A stretch of DNA of 64,000 nucleotides, taken from NCBI RefSeq assembly GCF_002261225.1, contig NZ_NEVM01000001.1, positions 310,001 through 374,000 on the forward strand, in the 5' to 3' direction. Within the stretch, counting starts at the first letter, position 1. Every line of letters starts with the position of its first letter. This document shows, piece after piece, positions 24,739 through 51,831 of the stretch. The DNA is from Bordetella genomosp. 10. GTDB taxonomy: Bacteria > Pseudomonadota > Gammaproteobacteria > Burkholderiales > Burkholderiaceae_B. Position numbers and translations under genes: made by a program. The notes under the pieces are model-generated. The model had not been told where the DNA came from, did no database searches, and saw only the letters and a program-made list of their open reading frames with translations.

Positions 24739-26376
24739 CTACGCCGGTGTTGGCGAAATCCATACGTTCTTCAATGAAGAACGCGCACCGTCCGGATCGA
24801 AGTCCAGTCCATGCACCCTGCGGTTGTAAAGGGTATAGAACGGGGCGTCCATTAGCGGAAGCAGGGGTAGGTCTTGCATGGCCAGGCGTTGAACGTCGCC
24901 GAACAGCTTGATCCGCTTGGCAGGATCAAGCTCACGTTGATAGGCCTCGATGGTACGGTCCATGTCGGCACTAGCGTATCCTGTCGCGGAAATGTAAGGA
25001 ACGCCGCGGGAGACAGCTTTGGACCAGTACAGCCGCGTGAGCCCCATCTCCGGATCGAACAGCGTCGAGAAACCGTTGATGATGATGTCGTAGTCGTAGT
25101 TGGTCCAGATCTTCTTCACGTAGCTGGGCGCTTCGGATGAGACGGGACGGATCTCGATGCCGACCTTGCTGAAATTTTGTCGCAGGTATTCTCCCGCCTG
25201 GACGAAGGCGGGGGCGCTGGGCGATAGATCGAGTTGCAGTGAGAAGCGGATGCCGTTCGACTTGCGAGGGTAGCCGGCCTCGTCTAGAAGTTTCTCGGCC
25301 AGCGCCGGATCATAGGCGTATTCGGGCTTGTCTTTCGTGTAGTAGCGCTTCAGCGATTTTGGAATGGGACCATCCGAGCGCGCGCTCAGTCCATACCAGA
25401 CGGTGTCGATGAGCCCTTGCTTGTCGACCGCGTGTGCAAACGCCTGCCGGACTTTGAGATTGCCAGTGATCGGACGCTTTAGGTTGAACATCAGATAGTA
25501 GATCTGCGCGTTATAGGAGTAGCCGCGTTGATCCAGCACCAGATTCTTGTTCTTGCGCAGGCGTTCGACGTCCGAGAACGGTACCCCTGCGAACGGCAGG
25601 TATAGGATATCCCCCGTCTCCAGGGCAGCTGCGCGGCTAGCCGGGTCGGGAATGTCGCGGAAGATCACCCTATCCAGATAAGGTCTGTCCGGATCCCAGT
25701 AATCGGGATTGCGCTCAAGTTCGACGTACTGGCCTTTTTTCCAGTCCTTGAAGCGGAAGGGACCGGTGCCTATGGGCTTGCCATTGTGTGGATTGGTCCG
25801 CACATCTGTACCTTCGTACAGATGCTGGGGAATAATCTGGGCTTCTACCGCATTCAACGTATTCAGGATCACGGGCGCGGGGCGGGACAAACGCAGAATC
25901 GCGGTGTGCGCGTCGGGCGTTTCGACGTCCCGGACGGCACTGAACGTGATACGCGCACGCGGATGCACTTTCTTCAGCACCTCCAGGATGCTGTAGCGGA
26001 CATCCGCTGAAGTGAAGGGATGACCGTCGTGCCATTTGACCCCTTCGCGCAACTTCAGGGTGATCGCTAACCCATCGGACGACGTATCCCATGACGTCGC
26101 CAATACCGGTTGCGGGTTCTGGTCATCGTCGTAAGTCAGCAGTCCGTCGAATATGTTGGCGGACACCGCGGAGTTGGCGTATTGATTGTTGAAAGTGACA
26201 TTCAGCGTATTAGGCGGGGGAAAGATCGCGGCGATCAACGTGCCGCCGCGCACCGGCTTGGCGTCGGCGCTTGCCGTTTGCGCGAACGACGGCGTATTCG
26301 CTATCAAGGGAGAAAAAATGGCGGCTTGCAGCAGGCGGCGGCGCGAGACGTCGGCTGCATTTTCAGGTTTGGACAT
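24739..26376 (-). CDS. family-5 (DppA/OppA-type) ABC substrate-binding protein
   Basis: The 545-residue periplasmic protein has a twin-arginine-like leader (VSRRRLLQAAIFSPLIA), then family-5 motifs: PVRGGTLIAAIFPPPNTLN, LKLREGVKWHDGHPFTSADV and GTGPFRFKDWKKGQYVELER. Family-5 proteins bind peptides, glutathione, nickel chelates or other large solutes for Dpp/Opp-like importers. It is the last gene of the operon that starts with dppB at 39012, giving that transporter two binding proteins (the other at 27761). The three family-5 proteins in the window share their C-terminal pattern (GARSSLK-W). The ligand is unknown. Confidence 0.93.
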   Translation of the reverse strand: MSKPENAADVSRRRLLQAAIFSPLIANTPSFAQTASADAKPVRGGTLIAAIFPPPNTLNVTFNNQYANSAVSANIFDGLLTYDDDQNPQPVLATSWDTSSDGLAITLKLREGVKWHDGHPFTSADVRYSILEVLKKVHPRARITFSAVRDVETPDAHTAILRLSRPAPVILNTLNAVEAQIIPQHLYEGTDVRTNPHNGKPIGTGPFRFKDWKKGQYVELERNPDYWDPDRPYLDRVIFRDIPDPASRAAALETGDILYLPFAGVPFSDVERLRKNKNLVLDQRGYSYNAQIYYLMFNLKRPITGNLKVRQAFAHAVDKQGLIDTVWYGLSARSDGPIPKSLKRYYTKDKPEYAYDPALAEKLLDEAGYPRKSNGIRFSLQLDLSPSAPAFVQAGEYLRQNFSKVGIEIRPVSSEAPSYVKKIWTNYDYDIIINGFSTLFDPEMGLTRLYWSKAVSRGVPYISATGYASADMDRTIEAYQRELDPAKRIKLFGDVQRLAMQDLPLLPLMDAPFYTLYNRRVHGLDFDPDGARSSLKNVWISPTPA

Positions 26377-26405
26377 GGCGAAGCTCCGTATTGCGGGGAG
26401 AAAAA

Positions 26406-27764
26406 CTAATGAGTAAAGGCGTCGAACAGGTCCGCGACATCCGGCACGTCCTCTACAGCCAACAGGTGGTCTACGAGTTCACGCGCGCGGGCATGCCCGA
26501 TATCCAATCCTTCGACGAGTGCAGCGGCCGCCTTTGCGCGCACGGCGTGCTCATCGATGGATCCGTCCGCGGATGATCCGGGCAGCCGGGACACGGTGAT
26601 TCCAGTGGTTTTACCGTCCGTAAACTGCAGGCGCAGGGTCGCGGGAGCCATCGTGCCCACGCCTTCCTTGCGAACGACGACGCGCTCGATCAAGGGCTGC
26701 AAGGCAGGGTCGAATACCGCCGCTGGGGTAATCTGCGCGACGCCGAAAACGCCGTAATGTAGCGCTGCCGCTACCGCATACTGGGCGCAGAACTGTCCTG
26801 TCACTTCCGCGTTGGCGTCGGTCGAGTAGGGCGCGCCCACGAGTGCATGCATCTCTTCCGTGATTGTGAGCTCGACGCGCACGATGGTCTTGGTGTCCAG
26901 ACAGCCAGGGCCGGCGCGGTTGGCGAGCTGCACGGCAGCCTCGATCGCGGCATGTGCCCGTCCGCAGGCCGGGTAGTGCTTGTACGTGGTCTGCTCCAGC
27001 AGGTAGACGCGACCCAATCCCGCAAGGACCCGCGCTGGATCGTGGCTGCCGTAAAGCGCGAACAGCCCATGTCGACCCTCGAAGGTCTCATGCGGACCTG
27101 TGATTCCGGCCTGGGCGAGCAGCGCGCTCTGAACACCGGCGCGCGCTGCAAAGGCGGACAGGAGCCGCTTGCTCAACGCTCGTTCGATGTGACCTTGCTG
27201 TGTTCCGGCCACTTGGCCAAGTGCGATACCCAGTGCTGCCGCCGTGCCCCTGGCGTCGAGGCCAAGCAGTCTTGCGGCCGCCGCGGCTGCGCCGAATACG
27301 CCATAGACCGACGTGCGGAACCAGCCGCCCGGCGCTTGGCCAGCGTGCGCGAGCCGGTAAGCCAGCTCGGATCCTGCCGCGATCGCCGCCATCAGGGCCG
27401 CACCGCTGGCGTGAACGAGTTCCGCAACCGCGAGGGCCGCGGGGATGACCACGGCATCAATATGGCTGGCATATGGGTTGAGGGAGTCAAAGTCCAACGC
27501 GGCCGCGTAGCTCCCGTTGTGAAACGCCGCGGCAGCGGGCGGAACACGCAAGCCACTGCCGTTCCAAAGCAGGCTCCGAGGCGATCCGCCATCGGCCTCG
27601 GTCAGTGCGGATACTGCGCGCATCCCTTCGGAGCGACGTGCAGCCCAAGCTACGGCGACAGTATCCAGAAGGCTGTAGCGCAGCGATCGCCGCGTCGGCT
27701 CAGGAAGGCTGGCGGGATCGGAGCCGGCCAGCCACGCCACGATTGATGTGAGGTTTCGGTTCAC
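26406..27764 (-). CDS. MmgE/PrpD-family protein
   Basis: The 452-residue protein matches the MmgE/PrpD superfamily along its length: SLLDTVAVAWAARRSEGM, AALDFDSLNPYASHIDAVVI-like region near residue 90, and TTYKHYPACGRAHAAIEAAV near 255. Family members include 2-methylcitrate dehydratase and epimerases of iminodisuccinate or related dicarboxylates. The start is a GTG at 27764 overlapping the stop of the binding-protein gene (GTGA). Position between two family-5 binding proteins argues for a role on the imported compound rather than in propionate metabolism; no prpB or prpC genes are present. Confidence 0.88.
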   Translation of the reverse strand: MNRNLTSIVAWLAGSDPASLPEPTRRSLRYSLLDTVAVAWAARRSEGMRAVSALTEADGGSPRSLLWNGSGLRVPPAAAAFHNGSYAAALDFDSLNPYASHIDAVVIPAALAVAELVHASGAALMAAIAAGSELAYRLAHAGQAPGGWFRTSVYGVFGAAAAAARLLGLDARGTAAALGIALGQVAGTQQGHIERALSKRLLSAFAARAGVQSALLAQAGITGPHETFEGRHGLFALYGSHDPARVLAGLGRVYLLEQTTYKHYPACGRAHAAIEAAVQLANRAGPGCLDTKTIVRVELTITEEMHALVGAPYSTDANAEVTGQFCAQYAVAAALHYGVFGVAQITPAAVFDPALQPLIERVVVRKEGVGTMAPATLRLQFTDGKTTGITVSRLPGSSADGSIDEHAVRAKAAAALVEGLDIGHARARELVDHLLAVEDVPDVADLFDAFTH

Positions 27765-29434
27765 CGCGCTGCCCCCGTCGGCTGTAGCCAGACGTCGGCG
27801 AGCGCCGAGCGTGCCGCGTCCGGTCCCGTCTCTAGTCCGCGGACGCGTTGATTGGAGAAAGTGAAGAACGGCGAGTCCATGATCGGGAGCAACGGCAGAT
27901 CGGCGCCCAACTCGCGCTGGAGCTCACGGAACAGCGCTTGGCGTTTTGCGGGGTCCTGCTCGCTGCGGTAAGCCTTGACGATGCTGTCCGTCCGCGCACT
28001 GGCGTATCCGGACGCGTTGACATAAGGAACTCCGCGCGACGCGCCTTCGGACCAGATGATGCGGGTCAGGCCCAGTTCCGGGTCCAACATGATGGAGTAG
28101 CCTTGGATCAGCATGTTGAAGTCGTACTCCGTATAGATCTTGCGGATGTACGTGGGCCCGTCATAGCGCTCGATGTTCAGCGCGATGCCTACCCGCTTGA
28201 GATCCTGCCTGATCATCTCCGCCGCTTGCACGTAGGCCTCGGTCGACGGAGAAGGCGTAAAGCTGATCTTGAAGCGTTCGCCGCCCGCTTTTCGCGGCAC
28301 GCCGGCCTGGTCCAGCAGCGCCTCGGCCTTTGCTGGATCGTAGGGATAGGTAGGCTTGTCTTCCGTGTAGAACTGCTTGAGCGAGCGTGGGATGACGCCA
28401 TCCTCGCGTTGACTCAAGCCGTACCAGACCGTATCGATCAGGCTTTGGCGATTGATCGCATGCGCGATTGCGCGCCTGACCCTGACATCGGAAATATGCG
28501 GACGGCGCAGATTGAATTCAATAACATAGATCTGTGCGCTGTATTCGTAACCGCGCGATTCGAAGCGCAATTGGGGATTCTTGCGAAGACGTGCCACATC
28601 GGAATAGGGGACACCGGAGTAGGGCAAATAGTGCAGGTCGCCGACTTCAAGCGCTGCCGCCCGGCTCGCGCCGTCGGGGAGCGAGCGGAAGATCACCCGA
28701 TCGAGATAAGGTTTGCTCCCTTCCCAGTAATCAGGATTCCGTTCCAGCTCGATGTATTCTCCCTTCTTCCAATTTTTGAAGCGGAAGGGACCCGTGCCGA
28801 TGGGTCTGAGATTGTAGGGATTGGTCCGGACGTCGGTCCCTTCGTACAGATGCCGCGGGATCAGTTGGCTCTCCGACGGACTCAAGGCGTTCATGATGAC
28901 GGGGGCAGGCCGAGAGAGCCGGAGAATCGCCGTCAAGGCATCCGGGGTCTCGACGCTGGTCACCGGCGCGAAGGTGATACGTCCGCGTGCATGAACCTTT
29001 TTCCACACTTCCAGGACGTTGTAAGCGACGTCGGCCGAGGAGAACGGCGTGCCGTCATGCCACTTCACGCCCGAGCGTAGCCTGAAGGTGATGGCCAACC
29101 CATCCTGCGACACATCCCACGCGGTAGCGAGCACGGCTCGCGGCTTCTGATCCTCGCCATAGCTCAGCAGGCCGTCGAAGATATTGGATGACACCACCGC
29201 GTTGGCGTATTGATTATTCACCGCGACGATCAGCGCCGAAGGTTCCGGATGCACGGCGGCGATCAGCGTGCCGCCGCGCACGGGCTGATCTGCCGCGTCA
29301 TTTTCCGTCGCCGCTGCGGCCAAGCTGGCCAGGCGCGGCGGAAGGCCCGACAACGCACCGGCGACGGTCGTCATGGCAAGGAGACGTCGTCGCAGGGGGG
29401 CTGGCACTGCCGGATTCTTGGGGGTTACAGGCAT
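27761..29434 (-). CDS. family-5 ABC substrate-binding protein
   Basis: The 557-residue protein has a leader (LRRRLLAMTTVAGALSGLPP) and family-5 motifs PVRGGTLIAAVHPEPSALI, FRLRSGVKWHDGTPFSSADV and GTGPFRFKNWKKGEYIELER. ATG 29434 was chosen because the leader begins there; the open frame runs to 29869 through the HD gene and lacks homology. It lies 7 bp after the HD gene and overlaps the PrpD gene, within the dppBCDF-led operon. It is closest in sequence to the binding proteins at 24739 and 46217, so the three are probably duplicates with changed ligand range. Confidence 0.92.
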   Translation of the reverse strand: MPVTPKNPAVPAPLRRRLLAMTTVAGALSGLPPRLASLAAAATENDAADQPVRGGTLIAAVHPEPSALIVAVNNQYANAVVSSNIFDGLLSYGEDQKPRAVLATAWDVSQDGLAITFRLRSGVKWHDGTPFSSADVAYNVLEVWKKVHARGRITFAPVTSVETPDALTAILRLSRPAPVIMNALSPSESQLIPRHLYEGTDVRTNPYNLRPIGTGPFRFKNWKKGEYIELERNPDYWEGSKPYLDRVIFRSLPDGASRAAALEVGDLHYLPYSGVPYSDVARLRKNPQLRFESRGYEYSAQIYVIEFNLRRPHISDVRVRRAIAHAINRQSLIDTVWYGLSQREDGVIPRSLKQFYTEDKPTYPYDPAKAEALLDQAGVPRKAGGERFKISFTPSPSTEAYVQAAEMIRQDLKRVGIALNIERYDGPTYIRKIYTEYDFNMLIQGYSIMLDPELGLTRIIWSEGASRGVPYVNASGYASARTDSIVKAYRSEQDPAKRQALFRELQRELGADLPLLPIMDSPFFTFSNQRVRGLETGPDAARSALADVWLQPTGAAR

Positions 29435-29441
29435 GGTGGAG

Positions 29442-30083
29442 TCAGAGAAATCTGTCGGCGGGATGGGCCTGTCCATGCGGGCCCCATTTCGGTTTGGCGA
29501 AGAGACGCTCCACCATGGGTTTGAAAAAATTGAGCGGCAGGCTTTCATAATCCGGGTCGAAGGAGGCGCCGTCATAGCGGTCGCAGAACTCCGCGACGCT
29601 GTCGAACCACGGATGGTCGCGGTATCTGTCGCGAGCGTTCCGGTCCCGGCCTGTGAAATGAAAGAAGTAATAGCCTTGAAAGATGTTGTGCTTCTCGACG
29701 ATCCAGTGGTTCTGCGGGGAAACGAAAGGCTTGAGCACCGCCGCGGCCAGGTCGGCGTGGTTGAACGAGGCCAGCGTGTCGCCGATATCGTGAAGTAGCG
29801 CACACACCACATACTCTTCGTCGCGGCCATCACGGTACGCCCGGGTGGCTGTCTGCAAAGAGTGCTCATAGCGATCGATGAGAAACCCTTCGGTGTCGCC
29901 CTTGAGCAGTTCCAGATGGGCCAGCACCCGTTCGGGCAAGGCTCGCTTGTAGCCCGCGCGTCTCGCGAGCAGGATGTCGGAATCCGCTTGGTTACGATCC
30001 TTCATATGGCGAAACGAGACCGTTGCGGTCAGTAGGCTTGCGTCGCTCGGAGATGCCTCCGGAGCGGTGGTGTGTTGCGTCAT
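29442..30083 (-). CDS. HD-domain protein, candidate mixed-valent diiron oxygenase (PhnZ/MIOX-like)
   Basis: The 213-residue protein has an HD domain: EHSLQTATRAYRDG with His74, ALLHDIGD with His98-Asp99, then His109 (FNHADL), His132 (EKHNIF) and a later Asp near 171 (RYDGASFD). The order H...HD...H...H...D and the EH-x-LQ-x-A opening resemble PhnZ, TmpB and myo-inositol oxygenase, which are diiron oxygenases, rather than simple phosphohydrolases. The 24-residue spacing of the first His to the HD pair is the same as in PhnZ. No phosphonate genes are nearby. In this operon it may oxidise a fragment of the imported sulfur compound; a phosphohydrolase remains possible. Confidence 0.75.
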   Translation of the reverse strand: MTQHTTAPEASPSDASLLTATVSFRHMKDRNQADSDILLARRAGYKRALPERVLAHLELLKGDTEGFLIDRYEHSLQTATRAYRDGRDEEYVVCALLHDIGDTLASFNHADLAAAVLKPFVSPQNHWIVEKHNIFQGYYFFHFTGRDRNARDRYRDHPWFDSVAEFCDRYDGASFDPDYESLPLNFFKPMVERLFAKPKWGPHGQAHPADRFL

Positions 30084-30101
30084 GATCGGTTCCAGAGGAA
30101 G

Positions 30102-30896
30102 TCAGGCGTTGTAGCCCGGAAAGTCACGATCTGCCTTGCGGCGGAAGGCCGCCCACTCGTGCTTGGCCTTGGGCGACCAATGGCGGTCCGAGTAGATGGT
30201 GCGGCCGCGTTCGATGCTGGCGCGCACCACCTCGGCATCGACGTCGTGTAGCTTCAGGCCGCCGGCCAAGGCGGCCACCTGGATGCCGCAGGCCCGTTCC
30301 GTCCGTGCGATCAACGCGAAGGCTTCGCCGATGCTGCGGCCGGCTGCAAGCGTGCCGTGATTGCGCATGAACAGCACCGAGCCATCGCCCAATTGTTCGG
30401 CCATACGGGTCCATTCCTCGCTGGGCAGGCGCGAGCCGCGGTAGTCGTAGTAGCGCACCCGGTTCAGCAGTAGCATGGCATTCTGTGAAATAGGCAGGAG
30501 TCCGCCCTCCTGCGCGCCCACCGCGGTACCGGCCACTGAATGCAGGTGCATGATGGCCTGGATATCTGGCCGGGCCGTGTAGAGCGCGCCGTGGATTTCA
30601 TCCGCCGCCGGATTCACGCCGTTCGGGCTGGGGCTGAGCTGATTGCCGTCAAGGTCGATCTTGACCAGGCTGGACGCCGTGATTTCCTCGAAGAAATAGC
30701 CGGCGGGATTGACGAGATAGTGATCCGGCTCTCCCGGGACCCGTAGGGAGAAGTGCGTGCCAAGCAGATCGTGCCATCCGTATTGCGCCGCCAGGCGATA
30801 GGCGGCGGCAAGGTCGACACGGGCGTCCCATTCCTGCTGGGAGCAGGATGCGCGCACGGAGGAGGGCGTGGAAGTCGCGGAGGGAAGTGCACTCAT
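30102..30896 (-). CDS. class II aldolase/adducin-family protein
   Basis: The 264-residue protein keeps the zinc ligands His117 and His119 (MHLHSVAG) and His180 (FMRNHGTLAAG), with FFEEITASSLVKIDLDG before them. It is about as similar in layout to the aldolases at 22556 and 47989 as they are to each other. Its ATG overlaps the stop of the upstream FMN monooxygenase gene (ATGA), tying the two enzymes together. It probably acts on the carbonyl product of that monooxygenase, an inference from coupling only. Confidence 0.9.
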   Translation of the reverse strand: MSALPSATSTPSSVRASCSQQEWDARVDLAAAYRLAAQYGWHDLLGTHFSLRVPGEPDHYLVNPAGYFFEEITASSLVKIDLDGNQLSPSPNGVNPAADEIHGALYTARPDIQAIMHLHSVAGTAVGAQEGGLLPISQNAMLLLNRVRYYDYRGSRLPSEEWTRMAEQLGDGSVLFMRNHGTLAAGRSIGEAFALIARTERACGIQVAALAGGLKLHDVDAEVVRASIERGRTIYSDRHWSPKAKHEWAAFRRKADRDFPGYNA

Positions 30897-32245
30897 GGAA
30901 GCTCCTGTTCTAAAGGCTGGGGCAGATTGAGGTTGGCGGGGATGGGAAGGCCAAGGTGGTCACGTAGGGTCTTTCCTCGATAGGCATGCCGGAAACGGCC
31001 GCGCCGCCGCAATTCCGGCACCAACTGGTCCACGACATCGTCGAGCGCGGCGGGCAGCCATGGCAGCATCAGGTTGAACCCGTCGGCGCCGTCACCGTCC
31101 ACCCAGGCTTCCATCTGATCGGCGACCTGGGCCGCCGTGCCGATGGCAAGCAGGTGCCCGCGGGCGCCGACAACCTTCTGGTAGAACTGGCGGACGGTAA
31201 GCCGCTCCTTGACGGCCATGTCGATCAGCAGCTTCTGGCGGCTGGGGAAGTCGGGGGTGAGGGCCAGCTGCGGGAAAGGGCTGTCCGGGCCCAGATGCGA
31301 CACGTCGATGCCGAGATGCCGCTTCAGGACGATCCAACCCACTTCGGGTTCGATCAGGTCCTGCAGTCGCTCGTATTTTTCGCGTGCTTCCGCAGCTGTG
31401 GCGCCGATGAACGTCATGACGCCAGGCATGATCTTCAGGTGCGCCGGATCACGCCCGGTAGCCGCCGCCTGTGCCTTGACGTCGGCGTAGAACGCTCGCG
31501 CGGCTTCCAGGCTGGGCTGTGCGGTGAAGACCACTTCAGCCCGTGTGGCAGCAAAGTGGCGTCCGTCGCTCGACGACCCTGCCTGCACGATGACCGGCTG
31601 GCCCTGCGGCGAGCGCGGGATGTTCAAAGGGCCACGCGTTGTGAAATACGTGCCGCGATGTTCCTGCACATGAAGCTTGTTTGGATCGAAGAACAGGCCA
31701 CTGGCTTTGTCGCGCAGGAACGCGTCTTCCTCCCAGCTGTCCCACAGGGCCTGCACCACGTCGACGAACTCCTGGGCCCGTTCGTATCGCTGGGCATGGC
31801 TTCGCACGGTTTGCTGATTGAAGTTCTGGGCTTCGCGGTCGTTGAAGGACGTTACCACGTTCCAGCCAGACCGGCCGCCACTCAACTGATCCAGGCTGGC
31901 GAACTTGCGGGCTACGTGAAACGGTTCGAAGTAGCTGGTCGACACCGTGCCGACCAGGCCCAGGTGAGACGTACTGGCGGCCAGCGCGGCCAGCAAGGTC
32001 GTGGGCTCCAGGCGGGTGACGCGCGACGTCCGCCCGACCGTTTCGTCGTCCGGATATTGTGCCGCCATCTGGTCACCGAAGAAGATCATGTCCAGCGTGC
32101 CGCGCTCCGCCGTCTGTGCCAGGCTTCGATAGAAAGAGAGCGTGGACCCGCCGTCGGCAGGAACATCCGGGTGCCGCCAGGCGGCGATGTGGTGGCCGAC
32201 ATCCAGGGGAAAGGCGCCGAGATGGATATGCGAACGTTTAGGCAT
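30893..32245 (-). CDS. LLM-class FMN-dependent monooxygenase, NtaA/DszA type
   Basis: The 450-residue protein shows SHIHLGAFPLDVGHHIAAWR, GTVSTSYFEPFHVARKFASL, GGRSGWNVVTSFNDREAQNF and QPVIVQAGSSSDGRHFAATR, the NtaA/SnaA/DszA pattern. It should use free FMNH2 and O2. It lies 10 bp after the DszC-like gene and overlaps the aldolase gene, giving a DszC-like plus DszA-like pair in one operon as in sulfone and thiophene desulfurisation. No dedicated flavin reductase was found in the window. Confidence 0.92.
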   Translation of the reverse strand: MPKRSHIHLGAFPLDVGHHIAAWRHPDVPADGGSTLSFYRSLAQTAERGTLDMIFFGDQMAAQYPDDETVGRTSRVTRLEPTTLLAALAASTSHLGLVGTVSTSYFEPFHVARKFASLDQLSGGRSGWNVVTSFNDREAQNFNQQTVRSHAQRYERAQEFVDVVQALWDSWEEDAFLRDKASGLFFDPNKLHVQEHRGTYFTTRGPLNIPRSPQGQPVIVQAGSSSDGRHFAATRAEVVFTAQPSLEAARAFYADVKAQAAATGRDPAHLKIMPGVMTFIGATAAEAREKYERLQDLIEPEVGWIVLKRHLGIDVSHLGPDSPFPQLALTPDFPSRQKLLIDMAVKERLTVRQFYQKVVGARGHLLAIGTAAQVADQMEAWVDGDGADGFNLMLPWLPAALDDVVDQLVPELRRRGRFRHAYRGKTLRDHLGLPIPANLNLPQPLEQELP

Positions 32246-33419: not shown

Positions 33420-33438
33420 AGCGGAGATGAAAAAAATT

Positions 33439-43651: not shown

Positions 43652-44821
43652 TCATAGGCGCGCGCTGACGTCGAAGTGCTCCCCGAGCAGCGCCCGGCCG
43701 ATTTCAGTGGCTGTCGTGTCCGGATTCTCGTGCAACGATTGATAGCGCAGGTCGCGCAGGAAGCGTGACAGCACGCTGCGCGCCGTGAGGGCACTGGAGC
43801 CCGCTATCTGCGCTGATTTTTCGATGACGCTTGTTGCGCACTTCAGTGCGACGTGCTTCGCTTTCATGGAAGCAAGTTCGGCGTTGTCGGTGGCGCCTTG
43901 TTGCCATAGCCAGGCAGCGTGATAGAGACTGTTGCGCGCGGCGTCGATGGCGATGCGGATTTCGCCCAGCCGCAGTTGCGTATGCGAATTGCCGGATGTG
44001 CCCCGCTTCGGGATGTAGTCGCACAGGAAGTCGACGACGCCTTCGCTTCCGCCGACATACTGTGCGGCGAAGCTGAGATGGCTTTTCGCGGTCCAGCGGC
44101 CGCGCGCATAATCGCCAGCTTTACCCAACACGTCACGGTCTGCGACGAAGCAATCTCTCAGGGTCAAGGTGGGGCTGTATGCGGCCCGCATGCCCATGGG
44201 ATCCCAGGAGTCCGGCTCTATCGTCAAGCCAGCGGCATGCCTTGGCACGGCGAAGAACTGAATCGCGGATTTGCCGGTATCGCCATCGGTGACGACAGCG
44301 GATATGGCATTGAAATGCACCACATCGGCCATCGTCGAGTAGTTCTTGACGCCGTTCAACAGCCACCCGCCATCGGTTTTTCTGGCGGATGTCCGTAGAT
44401 TAAGAAGACCGCGGCCAGTGCGCCCTGGTTCGCTGCCTGTGTTGTTGACGAACGCGCCTTGATCCACGATGGGCTTGATGATTCGCTCGATCTGGTCCGC
44501 GTTCGCGGTCTGGTCGAGACGGTGCGAGGTGTTGTAGTGGATGTGCAGGCATTGGGCGGTGGACAGGCAGTACCGCGCGGAGTGCTCGACAATCAGGAGT
44601 GACGCAAGCGGATCCAATCCCAACGCGCCGCCGCCCAGGCCGCCGATTTCCTCGCGCAAGGCAGCTGCGTTCAAGCCGGCCGCGACGACGTCTTGGAGGT
44701 TGCGGGTAGGCGTCGCGGCCAGGATGTCATGCTCGGCGGCGCGTGGGGCAAAGGCGCTGCGGCCTAGATAAGTCACCTTGTCGATGATGTCCCGGTGTTT
44801 CCTGGTGAAGATGGCGTCCAT
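43652..44821 (-). CDS. acyl-CoA-dehydrogenase-fold flavin monooxygenase, DszC/SfnB-like
   Basis: The 389-residue protein is a paralogue of the one at 32256: NNTGSEPGRTGRGLLNLRT, GGWLLNGVKNYSTMADVVHF and FAAQYVGGSEGVVDFLCDYI. Its C-terminal motif SLHENPDTTATEIG is again of the DszC/SfnB sort without a dehydrogenase-type Glu base. It follows a DszA-like gene after 8 bp, so the order is reversed relative to the first cluster. Oxygenation of a sulfur atom with FMNH2 is the likely reaction; true acyl-CoA oxidation is less likely. Confidence 0.85.
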   Translation of the reverse strand: MDAIFTRKHRDIIDKVTYLGRSAFAPRAAEHDILAATPTRNLQDVVAAGLNAAALREEIGGLGGGALGLDPLASLLIVEHSARYCLSTAQCLHIHYNTSHRLDQTANADQIERIIKPIVDQGAFVNNTGSEPGRTGRGLLNLRTSARKTDGGWLLNGVKNYSTMADVVHFNAISAVVTDGDTGKSAIQFFAVPRHAAGLTIEPDSWDPMGMRAAYSPTLTLRDCFVADRDVLGKAGDYARGRWTAKSHLSFAAQYVGGSEGVVDFLCDYIPKRGTSGNSHTQLRLGEIRIAIDAARNSLYHAAWLWQQGATDNAELASMKAKHVALKCATSVIEKSAQIAGSSALTARSVLSRFLRDLRYQSLHENPDTTATEIGRALLGEHFDVSARL

Positions 44822-44829
44822 TCCCGTCC

Positions 44830-46152
44830 TTACTTCTGAATATGGGCAGGAAGGCCGTAGTGCTCCCGCAGTGTGCTTCCTTCGTATTCGTAGCGAAAGA
44901 GGCCGCGTTGACGCAGAATTGGGATGACCCCGTCCACAAAGGCGTCCAGTCCCTGCGGCAGCACTGCAGGCATGTAGTTGAAGCCGTCAGCCGCGCCGTT
45001 CTCGAACCATTCGGCGATACGGTCGGCAACCTGCTCCACGCTGCCAACCAGGGTCTGATGGCCACGGGCTCCCGCAAGGCGCCCGATCAGCTGCCTCACC
45101 GTGAGATTTTCGCGTTTGGAGGATTCCAGGATGATGGTGGCGCGGCTACGGTGCCCCTCTATATTGTCCAGAGCGGGAAATGCCTCCAGGGGAACCGGCT
45201 TGTCGAGCGGATAGCCGCTCAGGTCCACACCCGTGAAATGGCGGATCTGGCGCAGACCCGCCTCGGGTACGATCAGCTCTTCCAGATCCTTGGCCAGACG
45301 TTGCGCTTCAGCTTCAGTGCCCGCCAGTATCGGACTCAGGCCGACCATGACCCGAAGGTTATCGGGATTGCGTCCCGAGCGCGCGGCTTGCTCCCGGATG
45401 CGCCGGTAGTAGGACTGGGCGCCCGCGAGCGTGTCCTGCGCCGTGAACACCGCATCGGCGTGGCGGGCGGCGAATGCAATGCCCGTCTCCGACGATCCGG
45501 CCTGGATCAGCACGGGCCGTCCCTGTGGCGACGGCGGCAGGTTCAGCGGACCCAGCACCTTGAAATACTTGCCCTGGTGATTGATCTGGCGGATTTTCGT
45601 CAGATCGGCGTAGACGCCATTCGTCTTGTCGTTTACGACAGCACCTGGCAACCAGCTGTCCCAGAGTCGCGTGACGACCTGGACGAATTCTTCAGCGCGC
45701 CGATAGCGCTCGGCGTGGGCAAGTCTGTCGTCGAGCCCGAAGTTACGCGCCGCGTTGTCGCTATTGGTCGTCACGATGTTCCAGCCGATCCGCCCCTTGG
45801 ACAGGTGATCCAGCGAGAGCAGCTTGCGCGCCAGATTGAAGGGCTCGTTGAACGACGTGGATGCGGTGACCGCCAAGCCGATGTGGCTCGTGGCGACACT
45901 CAACGCCCCCTGTAGCGCGATGGGGTCGAGTTGCTCGCTGGGACGATAGCCGATGCTGGAGTAGAGCATGGGTTGGTCGCCATAGAAGACGGCATCCAGC
46001 TTGCCGCGTTCAGCGGTGACCGCAACCTGGCGGTGCGCTTCGAAGTGGGTGAGATCGGCGCTGGCGGCGTCAGGCAGACGCCAGGCCGCTTCGTGATTCG
46101 ATCCAAAGGAGACATGGACATTGAAATGAAGTTTTCTCGGTGGCGTTGCCAT
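44830..46152 (-). CDS. LLM-class FMN-dependent monooxygenase, NtaA/DszA type
   Basis: The 440-residue protein shows LHFNVHVSFGSNHEAAWRLP, AVTASTSFNEPFNLARKLLS, GRIGWNIVTTNSDNAARNFG and GRPVLIQAGSSETGIAFAAR. It is nearest in length to the paralogue at 18593. It lies 64 bp after a family-5 binding-protein gene and 8 bp before the DszC-like gene. One cluster with two DszA-like enzymes (this and 48806) suggests two sequential oxidations or two related substrates. Confidence 0.92.
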   Translation of the reverse strand: MATPPRKLHFNVHVSFGSNHEAAWRLPDAASADLTHFEAHRQVAVTAERGKLDAVFYGDQPMLYSSIGYRPSEQLDPIALQGALSVATSHIGLAVTASTSFNEPFNLARKLLSLDHLSKGRIGWNIVTTNSDNAARNFGLDDRLAHAERYRRAEEFVQVVTRLWDSWLPGAVVNDKTNGVYADLTKIRQINHQGKYFKVLGPLNLPPSPQGRPVLIQAGSSETGIAFAARHADAVFTAQDTLAGAQSYYRRIREQAARSGRNPDNLRVMVGLSPILAGTEAEAQRLAKDLEELIVPEAGLRQIRHFTGVDLSGYPLDKPVPLEAFPALDNIEGHRSRATIILESSKRENLTVRQLIGRLAGARGHQTLVGSVEQVADRIAEWFENGAADGFNYMPAVLPQGLDAFVDGVIPILRQRGLFRYEYEGSTLREHYGLPAHIQK

Positions 46153-46216: not shown

Positions 46217-47830
46217 TCAGGGTTCTATCCAGGCATCCTTGAGCGAGGATCGGGCGCCATCGGAACTGGTGTCCACGCCGTGCACGCGCTTGTTATAGAA
46301 AGTGAAATAGGGTGCCTCCATGACGGGAATCAGGGGCAGGTCTGTCAGGAGTACGCGCTGCAGATCATGAAAGGCTTCATAGCGCTTGCGCGGGTCGAGC
46401 TCTTGCTGGTAATGGGCGATCAGGGCGTCGACGCGCGGCGATGCGTAAGCGAACGCATTGACATTGGGCACGCCCTTGGCGCCGGCCTTGGACCAGACGA
46501 GACGGGTCAATCCAAGTTCCGGGTCCATCAGGGTGGAGAAGCCCTGGAACAGGATGTCGAAGTCGTAGTCGGTCCAGATTCGCTTCAGGAACGCACCCTG
46601 CTCGGTCAGGACAGGCTTGACGTCGATGCCGACCTTTGCCAGGTTTTGCCGGATGTACTCGCCGGCTAGGGGAAACGCTTCGCCATTGATGGATAGGTCC
46701 AGCTTCACGGTGAAGCGTTTGCCATCCGGCTTGCGCGGCAGGCCGGCTTCGTCCAGCAGTTTCTCCGCCTCGATGGGGTCGTAAGGATAGGCAGGCTTGT
46801 CCTTCGCATAAAAATCGCCCAGTGCCGGCACGATGGGGCTGTCGGCGGTTCGGGCCACGCCGTGCCAGACGGTGTCGACCAGCCCCTGCTTGTCCAGCGC
46901 ATAGGCGATAGCCTCGCGTACCTTTACCTGGTCTACATGCGGACGGCGCAGATTGAATGCCAGATAAAACACCTGGGCGTTGTATTCATAGCCATGTGGT
47001 TCGAACACGAGGTTTGGATTCGACTTCAGCCGCTTCACGTCGGCGAGGGGCACCCCGCCAAAGGGTTGATACTGGATTTCCCCGGTTTCCAGCGCCGCGG
47101 CTCGGGTTGCGCTGTCGGGCAGACTGCGGAAGATGACGCGGTCGAGATAGGGTTTGCCGCTATCCCAATAATCGGGATTGCGTTCTAGGATGATTTGCTG
47201 CGATTTTTTCCATTCCTTGAATCGGAAGGGGCCCGTGCCGACCGGATGCTGATTGACGGGATTGCTGCGCACATCCGTTCCCTCATAGAGGTGGCGCGGC
47301 AGTATCGGCGCTTCCGCCGCGTCCAGCGAGTTAAGAATGACAGGCGCCGGACGCCGCAGCCGGAAGATCGCCGTGGATGCATCCGGTGTATCCACGGCCA
47401 GCAAAGGCTCAAAGGTTACCCGCGCGCGCGGACCGACCTTTTTCCATACTTCCAGGGCGGTGTATTGCACATCCGCGGAAGTGAAAGGTTTGCCGTCATG
47501 CCAACGGACGCCGCTACGCAACTTGAACGCGATGCTCAGGCCGTCGTCGGACACCTCCCAGCGAGTGGCCAGTGCCGGGACAGCACGGTTGTCCTTGTCG
47601 TAAGACACCAGGCCTTCGAAGATATTGCTCCCTGCGACGGCATTGGCATATTGATTATGGAAAGCCGTGCTGAGTTGTGCGGGGTCCGGGTTGACCGCGA
47701 CGACCAGGGTGCCGCCCCGCACCGGGGTCTGTCCGGCGGCGAGGCCGGTTGGCGCTGCGCCGGCAATGCCAGGAATGGCTAGCGTCAGGTTGGCGCCGAC
47801 AAGCAGGGTACGCACGAGTTTGCGAAGCAT
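46217..47830 (-). CDS. family-5 ABC substrate-binding protein
   Basis: The 537-residue protein has a Sec-type signal (LRKLVRTLLVGANLTLAIPG) rather than the twin-arginine leaders of its paralogues. Motifs are TPVRGGTLVVAVNPDPAQLS, FKLRSGVRWHDGKPFTSADV and GTGPFRFKEWKKSQQIILER. No permease or ATPase gene of the Dpp type lies in this cluster, so it probably docks on the dppBCDF system at 35-39 kb. A 158-bp gap with a small CCCTC/GAGGG hairpin near 47909 separates it from the aldolase gene upstream. Confidence 0.92.
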   Translation of the reverse strand: MLRKLVRTLLVGANLTLAIPGIAGAAPTGLAAGQTPVRGGTLVVAVNPDPAQLSTAFHNQYANAVAGSNIFEGLVSYDKDNRAVPALATRWEVSDDGLSIAFKLRSGVRWHDGKPFTSADVQYTALEVWKKVGPRARVTFEPLLAVDTPDASTAIFRLRRPAPVILNSLDAAEAPILPRHLYEGTDVRSNPVNQHPVGTGPFRFKEWKKSQQIILERNPDYWDSGKPYLDRVIFRSLPDSATRAAALETGEIQYQPFGGVPLADVKRLKSNPNLVFEPHGYEYNAQVFYLAFNLRRPHVDQVKVREAIAYALDKQGLVDTVWHGVARTADSPIVPALGDFYAKDKPAYPYDPIEAEKLLDEAGLPRKPDGKRFTVKLDLSINGEAFPLAGEYIRQNLAKVGIDVKPVLTEQGAFLKRIWTDYDFDILFQGFSTLMDPELGLTRLVWSKAGAKGVPNVNAFAYASPRVDALIAHYQQELDPRKRYEAFHDLQRVLLTDLPLIPVMEAPYFTFYNKRVHGVDTSSDGARSSLKDAWIEP

Positions 47831-47988
47831 GGGATGGAATCTTTGTAGAAATACGGTGGCCCTGCGTAGCAGGTGTCCCGGAGAGCGCGCGCGGGAGCGC
47901 CCCGCGTACCCTCAGAAAGAGGGCACGCAGCAGGGTGGATCGTTGAGTGAGGCCTATTGGCGGCGAGTTACTGCGCGGGGGAGCTTGG

Positions 47989-48795
47989 TCAGCGCTGGTA
48001 GTCTTTCGTCTGTCTGTCGAGGCTGCGGCGCAGCGCCTCCCAGTCATTGCCGCCGATACGCGCCCAGCCGTTCTTGGAGACGATGCGGGACGCTTGCGTC
48101 GATGCCCGCTCAATCACCTCGGTCGGTAACTCATTGAGTTCGGTGCTTACCGTGCCGATCTGGGCCGCGAGCTGCATGACGCAAGCGCGTTGTATCCGCC
48201 AGGCAAAGCCGAACGCTTCGCCAACGGACTCGCCCACGGTGAGCGTCCCGTGGTTGCGCAGAATGAGCACGCTGCCATCGCCGATATCGGACGCAATGCT
48301 ATCGCGCTCGTCCTCGTCGGAGAAACCCAGGAAGTCATGGTAGCGGACGTAAGGGAGGATGGAGAGTGCCATCTGTGTCAACGGCAGCAATCCGCGCTTC
48401 TGGCTGGCTACGGCCACGCCTTCGCGCGTATGCAGATGGATGGCGCATTTTAGGTCGGGACGGCTGATGTGTACCGCGCTGTGGATGGCCCACGCGCCGC
48501 TGCCCACGATACGCTGCCCGGGAATGGCGTCGATAGCTTGGCCGTCGGCCGTCCCATCGAAACCGACCTTCACCAGATTCGAGGCGGTGATCTCATCGAA
48601 GAGCAGGCCATAGCGGTTGATCAGGAATTGGTCAGTGGTGCCGGGCACCATCAAGGAGATGTGCGATGACAGCAGGTCTGTCCATCCGAGCGTGGCCACC
48701 AGTCGGAATGCCGCGGCAAGCTCGACCCGGGCCGCCCACTCTTCGTTGGAATAGCTGGCGGATTGAGATGGAATGGAACTGGGATTGATGCTCAT
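47989..48795 (-). CDS. class II aldolase/adducin-family protein
   Basis: The 268-residue protein has zinc ligands His120 and His122 (IHLHTREG) and a third His in LILRNHGTLTVGE, with LFDEITASNLVKVGFDG before them. ATG 48795 has AAGGA at a good distance; an upstream ATG at 48822 would overlap the monooxygenase stop and lacks this. It follows the DszA-like gene by 10 bp, the same order as in the first cluster (monooxygenase then aldolase). Confidence 0.88.
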   Translation of the reverse strand: MSINPSSIPSQSASYSNEEWAARVELAAAFRLVATLGWTDLLSSHISLMVPGTTDQFLINRYGLLFDEITASNLVKVGFDGTADGQAIDAIPGQRIVGSGAWAIHSAVHISRPDLKCAIHLHTREGVAVASQKRGLLPLTQMALSILPYVRYHDFLGFSDEDERDSIASDIGDGSVLILRNHGTLTVGESVGEAFGFAWRIQRACVMQLAAQIGTVSTELNELPTEVIERASTQASRIVSKNGWARIGGNDWEALRRSLDRQTKDYQR

Positions 48796-48805
48796 GCTGG
48801 GATCC

Positions 48806-50164
48806 TTAAACGGTCGTGGCATCGTTGCTGGGTACGGCTTGGCGCCGTGTGGCAGGGCGGTCTATGCCAAGGTGGTCGCGTAATGTGGCGCCTCCGTAAT
48901 CGCTTCTGAATATCCCGCGAGATTGCAGGATCGGGATGACCTGGTCGACAAAATCGGTCAAGGAAGCGGGCAGGCTGGGCGGTATCAGGTTGAAGCCGTC
49001 GGCAGCGCCTGACTCGTACCAGCGGATCAGCTCGCTGGCGACCTGTTCCGGCGTTCCGACGATCGGGTAATGGCCCCGCCCGGCGCTCAAACGGCGCAGT
49101 AGCTGTCGCAGGGTGAGCGTCTCGCGATCGGTGAGGTCCTGCACCAGCTCTCGCCGGCTATGCAAGTGTTCCTGACCGGAGCGCCGCGGCGGGATCCGGA
49201 CCGTTGCGTCAAGGTCGTGTCCGCTGAAATCCTCCCCCGTGATCCGCAGCAGTTCCGCGATGCCATAGCTGGGCAGAATGAGGTTTTCATACGATGACTG
49301 CAGCGCGCGCGCCTGCGCCTCCGTACCGCCGAGAAAGAAGCTGATGCCAGGCAATACCAGGACTTGAGCAGGATCGCGCCCGGCCTGCGCAACCTGGGCT
49401 TTCGATCCTTTATAGAAGTGTTGTGCGTCCTCCAGGCGTGTTTGCGCTGTGAAGATCGCGTCCGCGTAACGCGCGGCCAAGCGCTGGCCGGCACCGGACG
49501 AGCCCGCCTGGAACAGCACCGGCCGGCCTTGCGGTGACCGCGGCACCTCCAGCGGGCCCGCCACCTGGAAGTAGTCGCCAGCGTGGTCGATGCGATGCAC
49601 CTTGCTGCGATCCAGGAACACGCCAGCCGACTTGTCGGCCCTGATGGCGTCGTCATCCCAACTATCCCAGAGCCCAAGCACCACTTCCAGGAACTCCTCG
49701 GCGCGCGCGTAGCGGCTGTCGGGGTCGGGATGCGCCGGCAGCCCGAAATTGCCCGCCGCTTCACGGTTCACCGTCGTCACGACGTTCCAGGCTGCGCGGC
49801 CCCGGCTGACATGATCAAGGGAGGCATACCGACGCGCCAGGCTGTAGGGATCGTTGTAAGTCGTTGAACCCGTCGCCACCAGGCCGATGTGGTCGGTGAC
49901 GCCGGAGAGCGCAGCTACCAGGATCAGAGGGTCCAGCAGATCCCACGGCCGGTCCTGGGACCGTGCATTAAGGACGGGATGATCAGCAAGGAAGATGGCA
50001 TCCAGCTTGCCGCGTTCCGCCTCCCGCGCTAGATGGCGATAGTGAACGATGTTGACGACGTCCTCCGTGCGGGCTTCTGGCAAGCGCCAGGCGGCTTCGT
50101 GCTGACCGATATTGCGCAGGAAGACATTCAGGTGCATTTGGCGTGACGGGCGGTGCTTGGCCAT
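48806..50164 (-). CDS. LLM-class FMN-dependent monooxygenase, NtaA/DszA type
   Basis: The 452-residue protein shows MHLNVFLRNIGQHEAAWRLP, ATGSTTYNDPYSLARRYASL, RGRAAWNVVTTVNREAAGNF and GRPVLFQAGSSGAGQRLAAR. It is the longest of the four paralogues and about equal to DszA (453). It stands between the four-rhodanese gene (17 bp upstream) and the aldolase gene. Sulfone or sulfonate C-S cleavage is inferred from these neighbours. Confidence 0.92.
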   Translation of the reverse strand: MAKHRPSRQMHLNVFLRNIGQHEAAWRLPEARTEDVVNIVHYRHLAREAERGKLDAIFLADHPVLNARSQDRPWDLLDPLILVAALSGVTDHIGLVATGSTTYNDPYSLARRYASLDHVSRGRAAWNVVTTVNREAAGNFGLPAHPDPDSRYARAEEFLEVVLGLWDSWDDDAIRADKSAGVFLDRSKVHRIDHAGDYFQVAGPLEVPRSPQGRPVLFQAGSSGAGQRLAARYADAIFTAQTRLEDAQHFYKGSKAQVAQAGRDPAQVLVLPGISFFLGGTEAQARALQSSYENLILPSYGIAELLRITGEDFSGHDLDATVRIPPRRSGQEHLHSRRELVQDLTDRETLTLRQLLRRLSAGRGHYPIVGTPEQVASELIRWYESGAADGFNLIPPSLPASLTDFVDQVIPILQSRGIFRSDYGGATLRDHLGIDRPATRRQAVPSNDATTV

Positions 50165-50181
50165 GGCTGATTAACCGATAA

Positions 50182-51831
50182 TCAACGGGTGGCGGCCGGC
50201 GCGGCCTCGAAAACCGGCGCGGGACGTTCAATCTGACGGTAATGTGCCTCGCCGCCAGACCGCTTCAACTGTGCGGTCAAGCCGTGTTCCCACGCCAGAT
50301 ATTCTCGGAACCGTTGATGACGGACTGCCTCTTCGGCGTAGACGTACGCGCCGTAGCGCGTATCGTCTTCGCCGGTCAGGCGCTGCTGGTCACCGTTGCC
50401 CAACGGTAGGCCGGCGCGCTTCCAGGCTTCGGTGCCGCCCTGGATAGCCCGTACGTCGAGCTCGCCGGTCCGGTGCGCTGCCGCGACGCGGCCCGCCAGA
50501 ACACCATCGCGCGACGTCAACAGGATGGATTTGCCAGGGAACTTGCTGGCGCTCAATTCCCGCAGGCGGTGGGGTGCGATGAACCAGGCGCCTTCCGGAT
50601 GCTGCTTCCTGTATTGGAGGCTGTTATCGATGTCGATGATGACGGCCCCGTCCCGCTGCCGCCCGTGGGCGCTCGCGGGAGCGATCCACGGAGTCGGCCC
50701 AACGGCGGGATCGAGCCGCAACAGCCTCGGGGCCGGTCCGAGTTGCAAATCGGCGGGCGTGCCTGTGCGGTAAAGATGAACGTCATAGACGCCGAATTGC
50801 GCCAGCCAGGCCGCGGCTGCCGGTGCGCGCACGCCATCCCAGTCCGCCAGGACGACGCGCGCGCCCCGAGTGCCGATATGCTTGTCTGGTCCTTGAACCA
50901 ACTGACCACCCGGCACCCACCACCAGCCTGGAAGATGACCGTCGACGTATTCTTCCTCGGTACGCACATCCAGAAGATATAGGCTGCGGCGCGTGTCAGC
51001 GCTCAGGCGGGCCAGGCCGGCGTCGTCGACATAGGACACGCCAGCCCGTTGCAACAGGTCCGCGGCGGCAGCCCGCGCTTGCGTCAAGTGGACCGCGCCG
51101 GGTTCAGGCAGTTCGGTCACGCGTCCATGCTCGAGCTGTAGGCCATTCAGCAACCAGGCCATCGTGCCGTCTTCCAGCGCAACGACGGGATTGGGTATCC
51201 CCGCGTCGATCAGGGTCTGGGCGCCGACGATGCTGCGAGTTCGACCCGCACAGTTCACCACCACCAGCGTATCGGGCTTCGGTGCGAGTTCGCGAATACG
51301 GTAGGGAAGTTCGATATTCGGAACGTTGAATGCCCCAGGTAGGGAGAAGTTCTTGAATTCAGCGGGAGTGCGGCCGTCGACGATGACGACGTCCTCACCA
51401 CTGGCGATGCGCCGTCGCAACTCGCGCACGTCGATATGAGGCGTCTGCGCTTTCTCTTCGATCCACTCACCAAAGGCCTTGCCCGGCACGTTCTCGTCCT
51501 GGAAGACCTCCAGTCCGGCGGCTTCCCAGCCGTCGACGCCGCCTTCGAGTAAAGCAATGTCGGTGTAAGCCAGACGTTGTAGTCTTTCGGCAGCGGCTTG
51601 CAGGGTTTGCCCATCGGCATCCACGAGAACGATAGGGGTGTCCAGCCGTGGCACCAGACGGGCGATTTCGAGTTCGAGCCGGAAATAGGGGATGCTGATT
51701 CCCCACAGCAGGCTCTTGCGGGCAAAAAGACCCTGTTCGCGCACGTCGATGACGGCGATTTCCGCCGGCCCGAGCAGGGCGTCACGCAGCGCGGTCGGAG
51801 AGACCGAGCGAAAATTTGATGAAGTACTCAT
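50182..51831 (-). CDS. four-domain rhodanese (sulfurtransferase) protein
   Basis: The 549-residue protein is a paralogue of the one at 33439, again with four rhodanese-like repeats (IAVIDVREQGLFARKSLLWG, VVIVDGRTPAEFKNFSLPGA, YLLDVRTEEEYVDGHLPGWW, GAVIIDIDNSLQYRKQHPEG). Only domain two has the cysteine loop, Cys194 in VVNCAGRTRS; the equivalents are VDADGQ, LADWDG and TSRDGV. The C-terminal tail YLAWEHGLTAQL matches YLAWEESLVGAL in the paralogue, so the tail is conserved as well. It opens the second sulfur operon. A 239-bp gap with an A+T-rich patch precedes it. Confidence 0.9.
   Translation of the reverse strand: MSTSSNFRSVSPTALRDALLGPAEIAVIDVREQGLFARKSLLWGISIPYFRLELEIARLVPRLDTPIVLVDADGQTLQAAAERLQRLAYTDIALLEGGVDGWEAAGLEVFQDENVPGKAFGEWIEEKAQTPHIDVRELRRRIASGEDVVIVDGRTPAEFKNFSLPGAFNVPNIELPYRIRELAPKPDTLVVVNCAGRTRSIVGAQTLIDAGIPNPVVALEDGTMAWLLNGLQLEHGRVTELPEPGAVHLTQARAAAADLLQRAGVSYVDDAGLARLSADTRRSLYLLDVRTEEEYVDGHLPGWWWVPGGQLVQGPDKHIGTRGARVVLADWDGVRAPAAAAWLAQFGVYDVHLYRTGTPADLQLGPAPRLLRLDPAVGPTPWIAPASAHGRQRDGAVIIDIDNSLQYRKQHPEGAWFIAPHRLRELSASKFPGKSILLTSRDGVLAGRVAAAHRTGELDVRAIQGGTEAWKRAGLPLGNGDQQRLTGEDDTRYGAYVYAEEAVRHQRFREYLAWEHGLTAQLKRSGGEAHYRQIERPAPVFEAAPAATR

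Follow-up and report, generated by a model that had tools for sequence, protein, structure and literature searches.

The DNA examined here (the window) comprises 64,000 nt of Bordetella genomosp. 10 (GCF_002261225.1, NZ_NEVM01000001.1, positions 310,001 to 374,000 of the forward strand), and contains two gene clusters that share genes for a four-domain rhodanese (Rhd4), a flavoenzyme with the acyl-CoA-dehydrogenase fold (ACAD), flavin mononucleotide (FMN)-dependent monooxygenases of the NtaA/DszA type (LLM), a class II aldolase and family-5 binding proteins (SBP5). Cluster A (24739-39015) consists of 12 genes on the minus strand in the order dppB-dppC-dppD-dppF-Rhd4-ACAD-LLM-aldolase-HD-SBP5-PrpD-SBP5, and cluster B (42797-51831) of seven genes on one strand, in the order Rhd4-LLM-aldolase-SBP5-LLM-ACAD-SDR (Table 1). 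Intergenic gaps in A lie between -53 and +29 bp, and several neighbouring genes overlap by 4 bp, such that A looks like a single transcription unit; those in B range from -17 to +158 bp. Every gene that a preliminary description of the locus had named for the two operons was found at its place, as were the differing gene orders and the paralogous LysR genes at 39329 (+) and 52071 (-).

A near-complete version of this gene set is present in Verticiella and on a Sodalis plasmid. The Verticiella locus (L009) carries genes for SDR, DppBCDF, Rhd4, ACAD, LLM, PrpD, an aldolase (on the opposite strand), SBP5, LysR and a porin. On Sodalis plasmid pHS1 (L112), genes for SBP5, aldolase, an ACAD-type protein, two LLMs, a further ACAD-type protein and SDR are accompanied by a divergent arm encoding a Dpp ATPase, an MR/MLE protein, Rhd4 and permeases; the ACADs there belong to a different subfamily (24%). 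Loci in Achromobacter (L010), Pseudomonas (L011) and Xanthobacter (L015) combine Dpp, SBP5, Rhd4, aldolase, an SDR match and a more distant LLM (29-35%), with no ACAD match in any of the three. A first genome scan, with Rhd4_B alone as query, found no relative; an alignment-based second scan yielded at least 582 relatives among 599 stretches, from which 80 loci were kept. Enrichment was calculated from 40 of these loci, in 40 genomes, many of them Pseudomonas, with genome-wide counts made by hidden Markov model and local counts by tblastn bit cut-offs. These genomes contain 208 TIGR03860-type LLM genes, 0.69 of which would be expected near Rhd4 and 10 of which were found there, in nine loci (p 4e-9), and 240 class II aldolase genes, with 0.77 expected and 10 found in 10 loci (p 1e-8), the p values ignoring kinship. 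The neighbourhood is real, conserved and sulfur-linked, and the earlier expectation that these families are conserved as neighbours was borne out.

Rhd4_A and Rhd4_B are four-domain rhodaneses of the PA2603 type, and a PDB search run for Rhd4_B returned a full-length match to 1yt8 (351.9 bits, residues 15-528), the structure of PA2603. In both Rhd4_A and Rhd4_B the catalytic Cys loop, CAGRTR, occurs only in domain 2, and it is invariant in the alignment. The motif is kept in all 105 Rhd4 sequences read, the 80 genome loci having come from two patterns, one containing CAGRTR, and five further loci having been found via ACAD without it; short duplicate loci (L089-L093, L101-L107) were excluded from the set. 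Within 6 kb of Rhd4, a thiol-dioxygenase match occurs at 28 of the 80 loci, a MetC-like lyase at 29, an LLM at 11, an aldolase at 13 and an Ssu-type permease at 12. Taking dioxygenase, lyase, LLM, Ssu permease and ACAD together, 52 loci have one or more of them, and 28 have none by these queries. PF05995 was too insensitive here, giving no match in genome G1042 although its locus L054 shows a 68% dioxygenase match. In Variovorax, a dioxygenase match and Rhd4 lie in one 750-aa open reading frame (ORF) annotated as sulfurtransferase (L002:19332-21584, tblastn), which the ORF at L001:18630-21596 resembles by eye, the dioxygenase-like part being N-terminal in both. In a Rhodospirillaceae metagenome-assembled genome (L067:3926-20020), Rhd4 stands amid TauD-family genes, nine on its own strand by tblastn and five Pfam-confirmed, together with TauE sulfite-exporter genes (two Pfam-confirmed) and an NMT1 binding protein. 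Two dioxygenase queries gave no tblastn match to a thiol dioxygenase in the window, which is accordingly not a 3MDO/Msdo-Rhd4 locus. The occurrence of Rhd4 beside unrelated C-S-breaking systems (thiol dioxygenases, MetC-like lyases, LLMs, and TauD with TauE) argues for an organosulfur pathway, and the organosulfur context given in the preliminary description is supported.

It is proposed, with a probability of roughly 0.55, that A and B are catabolic or scavenging operons that combine import, S-oxygenation, C-S cleavage, carbon clean-up and sulfur handling by Rhd4. Their substrate is very likely organosulfur in nature, with polar thioethers, sulfoxides and sulfones as the probable candidates. 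Uptake would involve the porin, the family-5 binding proteins and an ABC importer of the Dpp type; the carrier, correctly noted before, is present in A, whereas B has a binding protein and adjoins an ssu-like importer. The sulfur would then be oxidised by ACAD, acting as a 'group D' flavin monooxygenase of the two-component kind. The 'group C' LLMs would next cleave the C-S bond to give a carbonyl compound and sulfinate or sulfite. The carbon moiety would be processed by SDR (in B), the class II aldolase, and the PrpD and HD proteins (in A). Finally, Rhd4, which has a single active site among its four domains, would accept the oxidised sulfur that is set free; combination of sulfane sulfur with sulfite to form thiosulfate is the likeliest way. 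The odds on this order of steps are about even, and the sulfite role of Rhd4 is put forward more tentatively than that.

The oxygenase role of ACAD, fed by a flavin reductase, is moderately favoured. The preliminary description had called the ACADs DszC/SfnB-like, which holds at the level of fold and guild: the predicted model of ACAD_B has the acyl-CoA-dehydrogenase fold of the Group D enzymes, and its top three Foldseek matches include a flavin monooxygenase and DszC. The label does not extend to the named families, since ACAD_A and ACAD_B scored 39.4 and 66.9 bits with the DszC model (NF043015, cut-off 850) and 69.1 and 77.2 bits with the SfnB model (TIGR04022, cut-off 430.9), and matches to acyl-CoA dehydrogenases are equally good or marginally better. 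Two comparisons weigh against an oxygenase: VIA placed dehydrogenases slightly above monooxygenases for the ACAD model (46.1 vs 44.3 and 44.1), and the sequence profile also matches acyl-CoA dehydrogenases slightly better. The fold comparison as a whole did not separate monooxygenase from dehydrogenase, and the absence of SfnB from the fold-match list excludes nothing. On the side of an oxygenase, at the position of the dehydrogenase base the family has E in 38, S in three and N in two of 43 rows, preceded by an invariant His (43/43). Group D two-component monooxygenases depend on O2 and on a partner reductase that supplies reduced flavin. The window yielded no flavin reductase, hence one would have to act in trans. 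Elsewhere, a flavin-reductase match follows ACAD in L094, L095 and L096 (tblastn), with a further, Pfam-confirmed reductase in L094; L108 has no such match, and on a Variovorax plasmid (L098), which carries Rhd4-ACAD, flavin reductases lie ∼9 kb away.

ACAD is rare when searched for alone, though each genome contributed no more than its best 4-7 candidates for scoring and the samples overlap, so that counts are lower bounds. It was found in at least 4 of 268 genomes of the Verticiella family; the class sample gave at least 1 of 369 and the order sample at least 3 of 399, amounting to at least six places in five genomes. Five of the six places are directly beside Rhd4, or four of five without Verticiella (G001), already known from the Rhd4 scan; the sixth (L096, 34% identity) is ∼5 kb from Rhd4. 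Four of the five ACAD genomes and the Variovorax plasmid contain one or two Rhd4 genes each (G639 was not counted). Three of the four plasmid records with ACAD relatives were examined, and the two whose relatives have 36-37% identity lack Rhd4. A different Rhd4-ACAD arrangement, in which an additional ACAD, PrpD and SDR are always present, is common to L094, L095 and L108; AcnX and CoA-ligase Pfam matches are present in L094 and L108 (the two scanned), and a CoA transferase in L094. This arrangement is a separate cluster for which no description was found.

Alternatively, ACAD could be an acyl-CoA desulfinase or dehydrogenase, comparable with the 3-sulfinopropionyl-CoA desulfinase of Advenella, within a CoA-thioester route in which LLM makes the first C-S cut. 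The slight preference for dehydrogenases described above would fit such an enzyme. This alternative is nonetheless rather unlikely given the reductase matches next to ACAD at three loci, the second ACAD already present in L094, L095, L098 and L108, the low scores with the 3-sulfinopropanoyl-CoA desulfinase model (NF042439; 64.3 bits for ACAD_A and 78.1 for ACAD_B, cut-off 600), and the fact that Pfam detected no CoA ligase in either cluster.

The LLMs of A and B, and another in a flanking module, exceed the TIGR03860 cut-off of 279.7 bits. The solved relatives of LLM_A include nitrilotriacetate monooxygenase (3sdo, the closest), YtnJ/MoxC and a dibenzothiophene desulfurization enzyme A, which score alike (352-373 bits), and its substrate cannot therefore be read from them. 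Since the closest of these is named for nitrilotriacetate, and ethylenediaminetetraacetate (EDTA) monooxygenase belongs to the same family, the clusters could feasibly degrade a nitrogen compound by NtaA/EmoA-like amine cleavage, with Rhd4 being incidental. The presence of Rhd4 in both clusters and beside LLM at 11 of the 80 loci, and the flanking TauD, ssu-like importers and second rhodanese, make this improbable.

Rhodaneses are classically thiosulfate:cyanide sulfurtransferases, and several of the loci are on plasmids, while A and B look accessory; Rhd4 might thus serve general cyanide or sulfite detoxification, the operons being held together only by co-transfer. Neighbour type was mapped on a tree of 103 of the 105 Rhd4 sequences (L013_46 and L033_10001 being too short), on which it changes 17 times as against 56.9 times in shuffles (0/200 as low). 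Such clustering, to which near-copies contribute, is expected if Rhd4 fits its partners, and the detoxification view is accordingly very unlikely.

The preliminary description regarded A and B as two rearranged copies of one system. Trees place them apart: a clade uniting A and B was rejected for Rhd4 (p-AU 9.3e-58, 41 of the 105 sequences), for ACAD (p-AU 1.4e-9, 43 rows) and for the three LLMs (p-AU 2e-7, 29 rows, long branches present). Rhd4_A and LLM_A pair with Verticiella and ACAD_A falls in one small clade with it, whereas Rhd4_B groups among dioxygenase-fused and LLM-linked Rhd4s; LLM_B1 and LLM_B2 may be sisters on this tree (91/88, not starred). A and B thus have separate ancestry in three shared families, Rhd4, ACAD and LLM. 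Local duplication followed by rearrangement, which the adjacency of the same families and the A-B identities (SBP5 55-59%, ACAD 57%, LysR 46.5%, LLM and aldolase 44%, Rhd4 35%) might suggest, is hardly credible against these trees and the identity of ACAD_A (80%) and LLM_A (84%) to Verticiella. The trees covered Rhd4, ACAD and LLM, and a partial duplication may have involved SBP5, aldolase or LysR.

With regard to regulation, LysR_A and LysR_B match AlsR/HcaR/BenM-type models under the cut-off. CysB-type regulation was considered and rejected: no CysB or Cbl model is among the families listed at E <= 1e-30, and the two regulators are 26-27% identical to a CysB-like regulator. As the regulators resemble AlsR/HcaR/BenM rather than CysB/Cbl, pathway-specific induction of A and B appears as likely as induction by sulfur limitation. 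No common operator of A and B was found, the best 17-bp match (13/17) lying within shuffles. The A and Verticiella promoters have 15/17 positions in common, above 20 shuffles (maximum 14), which is weak evidence; for B and Verticiella the value is 14/17, within shuffles.

Table 1. Genes and modules of the two clusters and their flanks; coordinates refer to the window.
Feature	Coordinates	Strand	Basis
SBP5_a, family-5 solute-binding protein (A)	24739..26376	-	PF00496 316 bits; under cut-off of each NCBIfam model listed, incl. Dpp/Gsi/Nik
MmgE/PrpD family protein (A)	26406..27764	-	PF03972 + PF19305; 68% to Verticiella-locus gene
SBP5_b, second family-5 binding protein (A)	27761..29434	-	PF00496 305 bits; 60% to SBP5_a
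HD-domain protein, PhnZ/TmpB/inositol-oxygenase-like (A)	29442..30083	-	PF01966; top PDB matches PhnZ, TmpB
Class II aldolase Ald_A (A)	30102..30896	-	PF00596; NF005451 280.6 bits, cut-off 207
LLM_A, NtaA/DszA-type FMN monooxygenase (A)	30893..32245	-	TIGR03860 570.2 bits; 84% to Verticiella, 58% to Sodalis
ACAD_A, acyl-CoA-dehydrogenase-fold flavoenzyme (A)	32256..33491	-	PF02771/02770/08028; 80% to Verticiella
Rhd4_A, four rhodanese domains (A)	33439..35034	-	4 PF00581 stretches; CAGRTR in domain 2 only
DppF-type ATPase (A)	35041..36126	-	PF00005, PF08352
DppD-type ATPase (A)	36123..37148	-	PF00005, PF08352
DppC-type permease (A)	37145..37987	-	PF00528
DppB-type permease (A)	37984..39015	-	PF00528, PF19300
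LysR_A, divergent regulator	39329..40255	+	PF00126, PF03466; AlsR/HcaR-like, under cut-offs
Porin	40287..41411	-	PF13609; homologue in Verticiella locus L009, 63%
SDR oxidoreductase (B)	42797..43624	-	PF13561
ACAD_B (B)	43652..44821	-	PF08028 and others; 57% to ACAD_A; model pLDDT 91.7
LLM_B1 (B)	44830..46152	-	TIGR03860 532.0 bits
SBP5_c (B)	46217..47830	-	PF00496
Class II aldolase Ald_B (B)	47989..48822	-	PF00596; NF005451 268.6 bits, cut-off 207
LLM_B2 (B)	48806..50164	-	TIGR03860 544.6 bits
Rhd4_B, four rhodanese domains (B)	50182..51831	-	4 PF00581 stretches; CAGRTR in domain 2
LysR_B	52071..53054	-	PF00126, PF03466; 46.5% to LysR_A
ssu/tau-like importer beside B: 317-aa protein, permease, ATPase, NMT1 binding protein (55678-56724)	53055..56724	-	some ORF starts overlap, uncertain
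Flanking module: two-domain rhodanese, TauD-family dioxygenase, NMT1-type binding protein, permease, ATPase	14148..18577	+	
Flanking module: LLM, ATPase, permease, binding protein, class II aldolase, 265-aa SsuA-fold protein	18593..24465	-	

Several of the remaining products were examined also. SBP5_a reached 162.8 of 594 bits with the GsiB equivalog model and 140 of 1005 with that of DppA, and is thus assigned to neither. The listed ORF for SBP5_b (27761-29869) is over-extended into the HD gene, with a likely start, judged by eye from the sequence, near 29434. Only residues 63-108 of the HD protein align to PhnZ or TmpB; H74, H98, D99, H109, H132 and D171 are invariant (10 rows), and may correspond to the six metal ligands of the PhnZ HD site. 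Eleven of 15 plasmid records were examined for HD-protein relatives; a class II aldolase directly adjoins the relative in two of them (L119, L120) and lies close to it in a third, L116 (3/11 relatives). A ketopantoate-reductase-like ORF of 230 aa (41535-42227), matching the first ∼112 residues of a ∼300-residue family, is probably a short or broken gene. Comparison with a viral fold library gave nothing useful.

The limits first drawn around the system end too early, since the sulfur island extends on both sides (14148-24465 and 53055-56724). In the first flanking module, the ORFs of the two-domain rhodanese (14148-14993) and the TauD-family dioxygenase (14855-15970) overlap, making the start uncertain. 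In the second, the LLM scored 532.6 bits with TIGR03860, and the permease has a tblastn match only, with no Pfam match. Its 265-aa protein of the SsuA/Thi5/DszB fold (23668-24465) is without signal peptide, has an invariant Cys71, and is possibly a cytoplasmic enzyme or sensor. The DszB-like motif RxGG gave two unspecific matches among 11 binding-protein-like Rhd4 neighbours and none in the window proteins tested. Beside B, the 317-aa protein has a signal-like start and no Pfam match. Genomes G110 and G109 carry the 14-24 kb module, with 61-94% protein identity over the region examined, and G091 has part of it (80-89%), without LLM and the second ATPase and permease; G196 has the 265-aa protein without the rest. 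Neither A nor B was seen within roughly 9.5 kb beyond the module in G110, G109 or G091, and no ACAD match was obtained among the best 4-7 candidates scored in each; in G091 a dioxygenase-Rhd4 pair stands in that stretch instead. As these genomes share the module and show neither cluster nearby, A and B give the impression of an accessory island with a sulfur theme. Further along, 56868-63049 contains two PrpD-family genes and TctA/TctB/TctC transporter genes, and a similar arrangement, PrpD-PrpD-Tct-LysR-dioxygenase-Rhd4, occurs in Sodalis (L005).

Known systems resemble parts of this locus. The Bacillus subtilis yxe operon, for breakdown of the thioether S-(2-succino)cysteine, uses an NtaA-family monooxygenase like the LLMs of the window and, unlike the window, has N-acetylation and deacetylation steps; no Rhd4, ACAD or aldolase is known in that route. 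A sulfate-starvation regulon of P. aeruginosa comprises PA2594-PA2603. For PA2594 this is described in PMC7760384. In the Pseudomonas 3mdo-tst operon (PA2602-PA2603 homologues), an Rhd4 homologue shares one apparent unit with a thiol-oxidising enzyme, which is a thiol dioxygenase there as against flavin enzymes and a Dpp carrier in the window; tst deletion in P. protegens caused no significant change in 3-mercaptopropionate (PMC12947264). This argues against Rhd4 acting ahead of thiol oxidation and is compatible with its acting at a later stage. The mercaptosuccinate dioxygenase locus of Advenella and Variovorax likewise places a rhodanese next to an enzyme that acts on C-S bonds, with an ABC importer adjoining a LysR gene (PMC5373536), but comprises a thiol dioxygenase, a cystathionine beta-lyase and an amino-acid importer in place of ACAD, LLM, aldolase and Dpp. 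Likeness to the 4S (Dsz) pathway and to dimethyl sulfide assimilation in Acinetobacter baylyi is one of fold and guild only; in the latter, group D enzymes oxidise dimethyl sulfide and dimethyl sulfoxide and the group C enzyme SsuD acts on methanesulfonate, the word 'rhodanese' does not occur in the paper (PMC13352529), and import by a peptide-type carrier is a feature of the window. Breakdown of 4,4'-dithiodibutyrate couples an LLM and rhodaneses, which are encoded at separate loci (PMC5157978). Related Rhd4 loci with thiol dioxygenases have been published already, and no description of the present gene set with flavin enzymes, or of its route, was found in the open-access literature, subscription journals lying outside the search.

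TauD-type chemistry yields sulfite. The product common to most Rhd4-linked C-S systems is sulfite, or sulfinate decaying to sulfite, as described for sulfinosuccinate (PMC5373536); this is less clear for the lyase loci. A bolder and doubtful extension is that Rhd4 forms the shared last step of unrelated bacterial C-S-breaking chemistries (thiol dioxygenases, group D/C flavin enzymes, TauD-type dioxygenases), its one active site capturing sulfite or sulfinate upon release and passing it on in the form of sulfane sulfur. On this view the island would hold a 4S-like route whose parts are not orthologous to those of 4S; the SsuA-fold protein, which has no signal peptide and an invariant Cys71, could serve as its DszB-like desulfinase, and the toolkit would have been assembled at least twice. 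The gene set itself (Dpp carrier, LLM, aldolase, Rhd4 and SDR, ACAD being optional) provides a signature for a probable organosulfur route in Beta-, Gamma- and Alphaproteobacteria. Sulfurtransferases of the Rhd4 type are widespread and of solved structure, with no clear role assigned in the open-access literature examined; the survey ties them to several distinct C-S-breaking systems, and makes the hypothesis of a shared acceptor for released oxidised sulfur directly testable.

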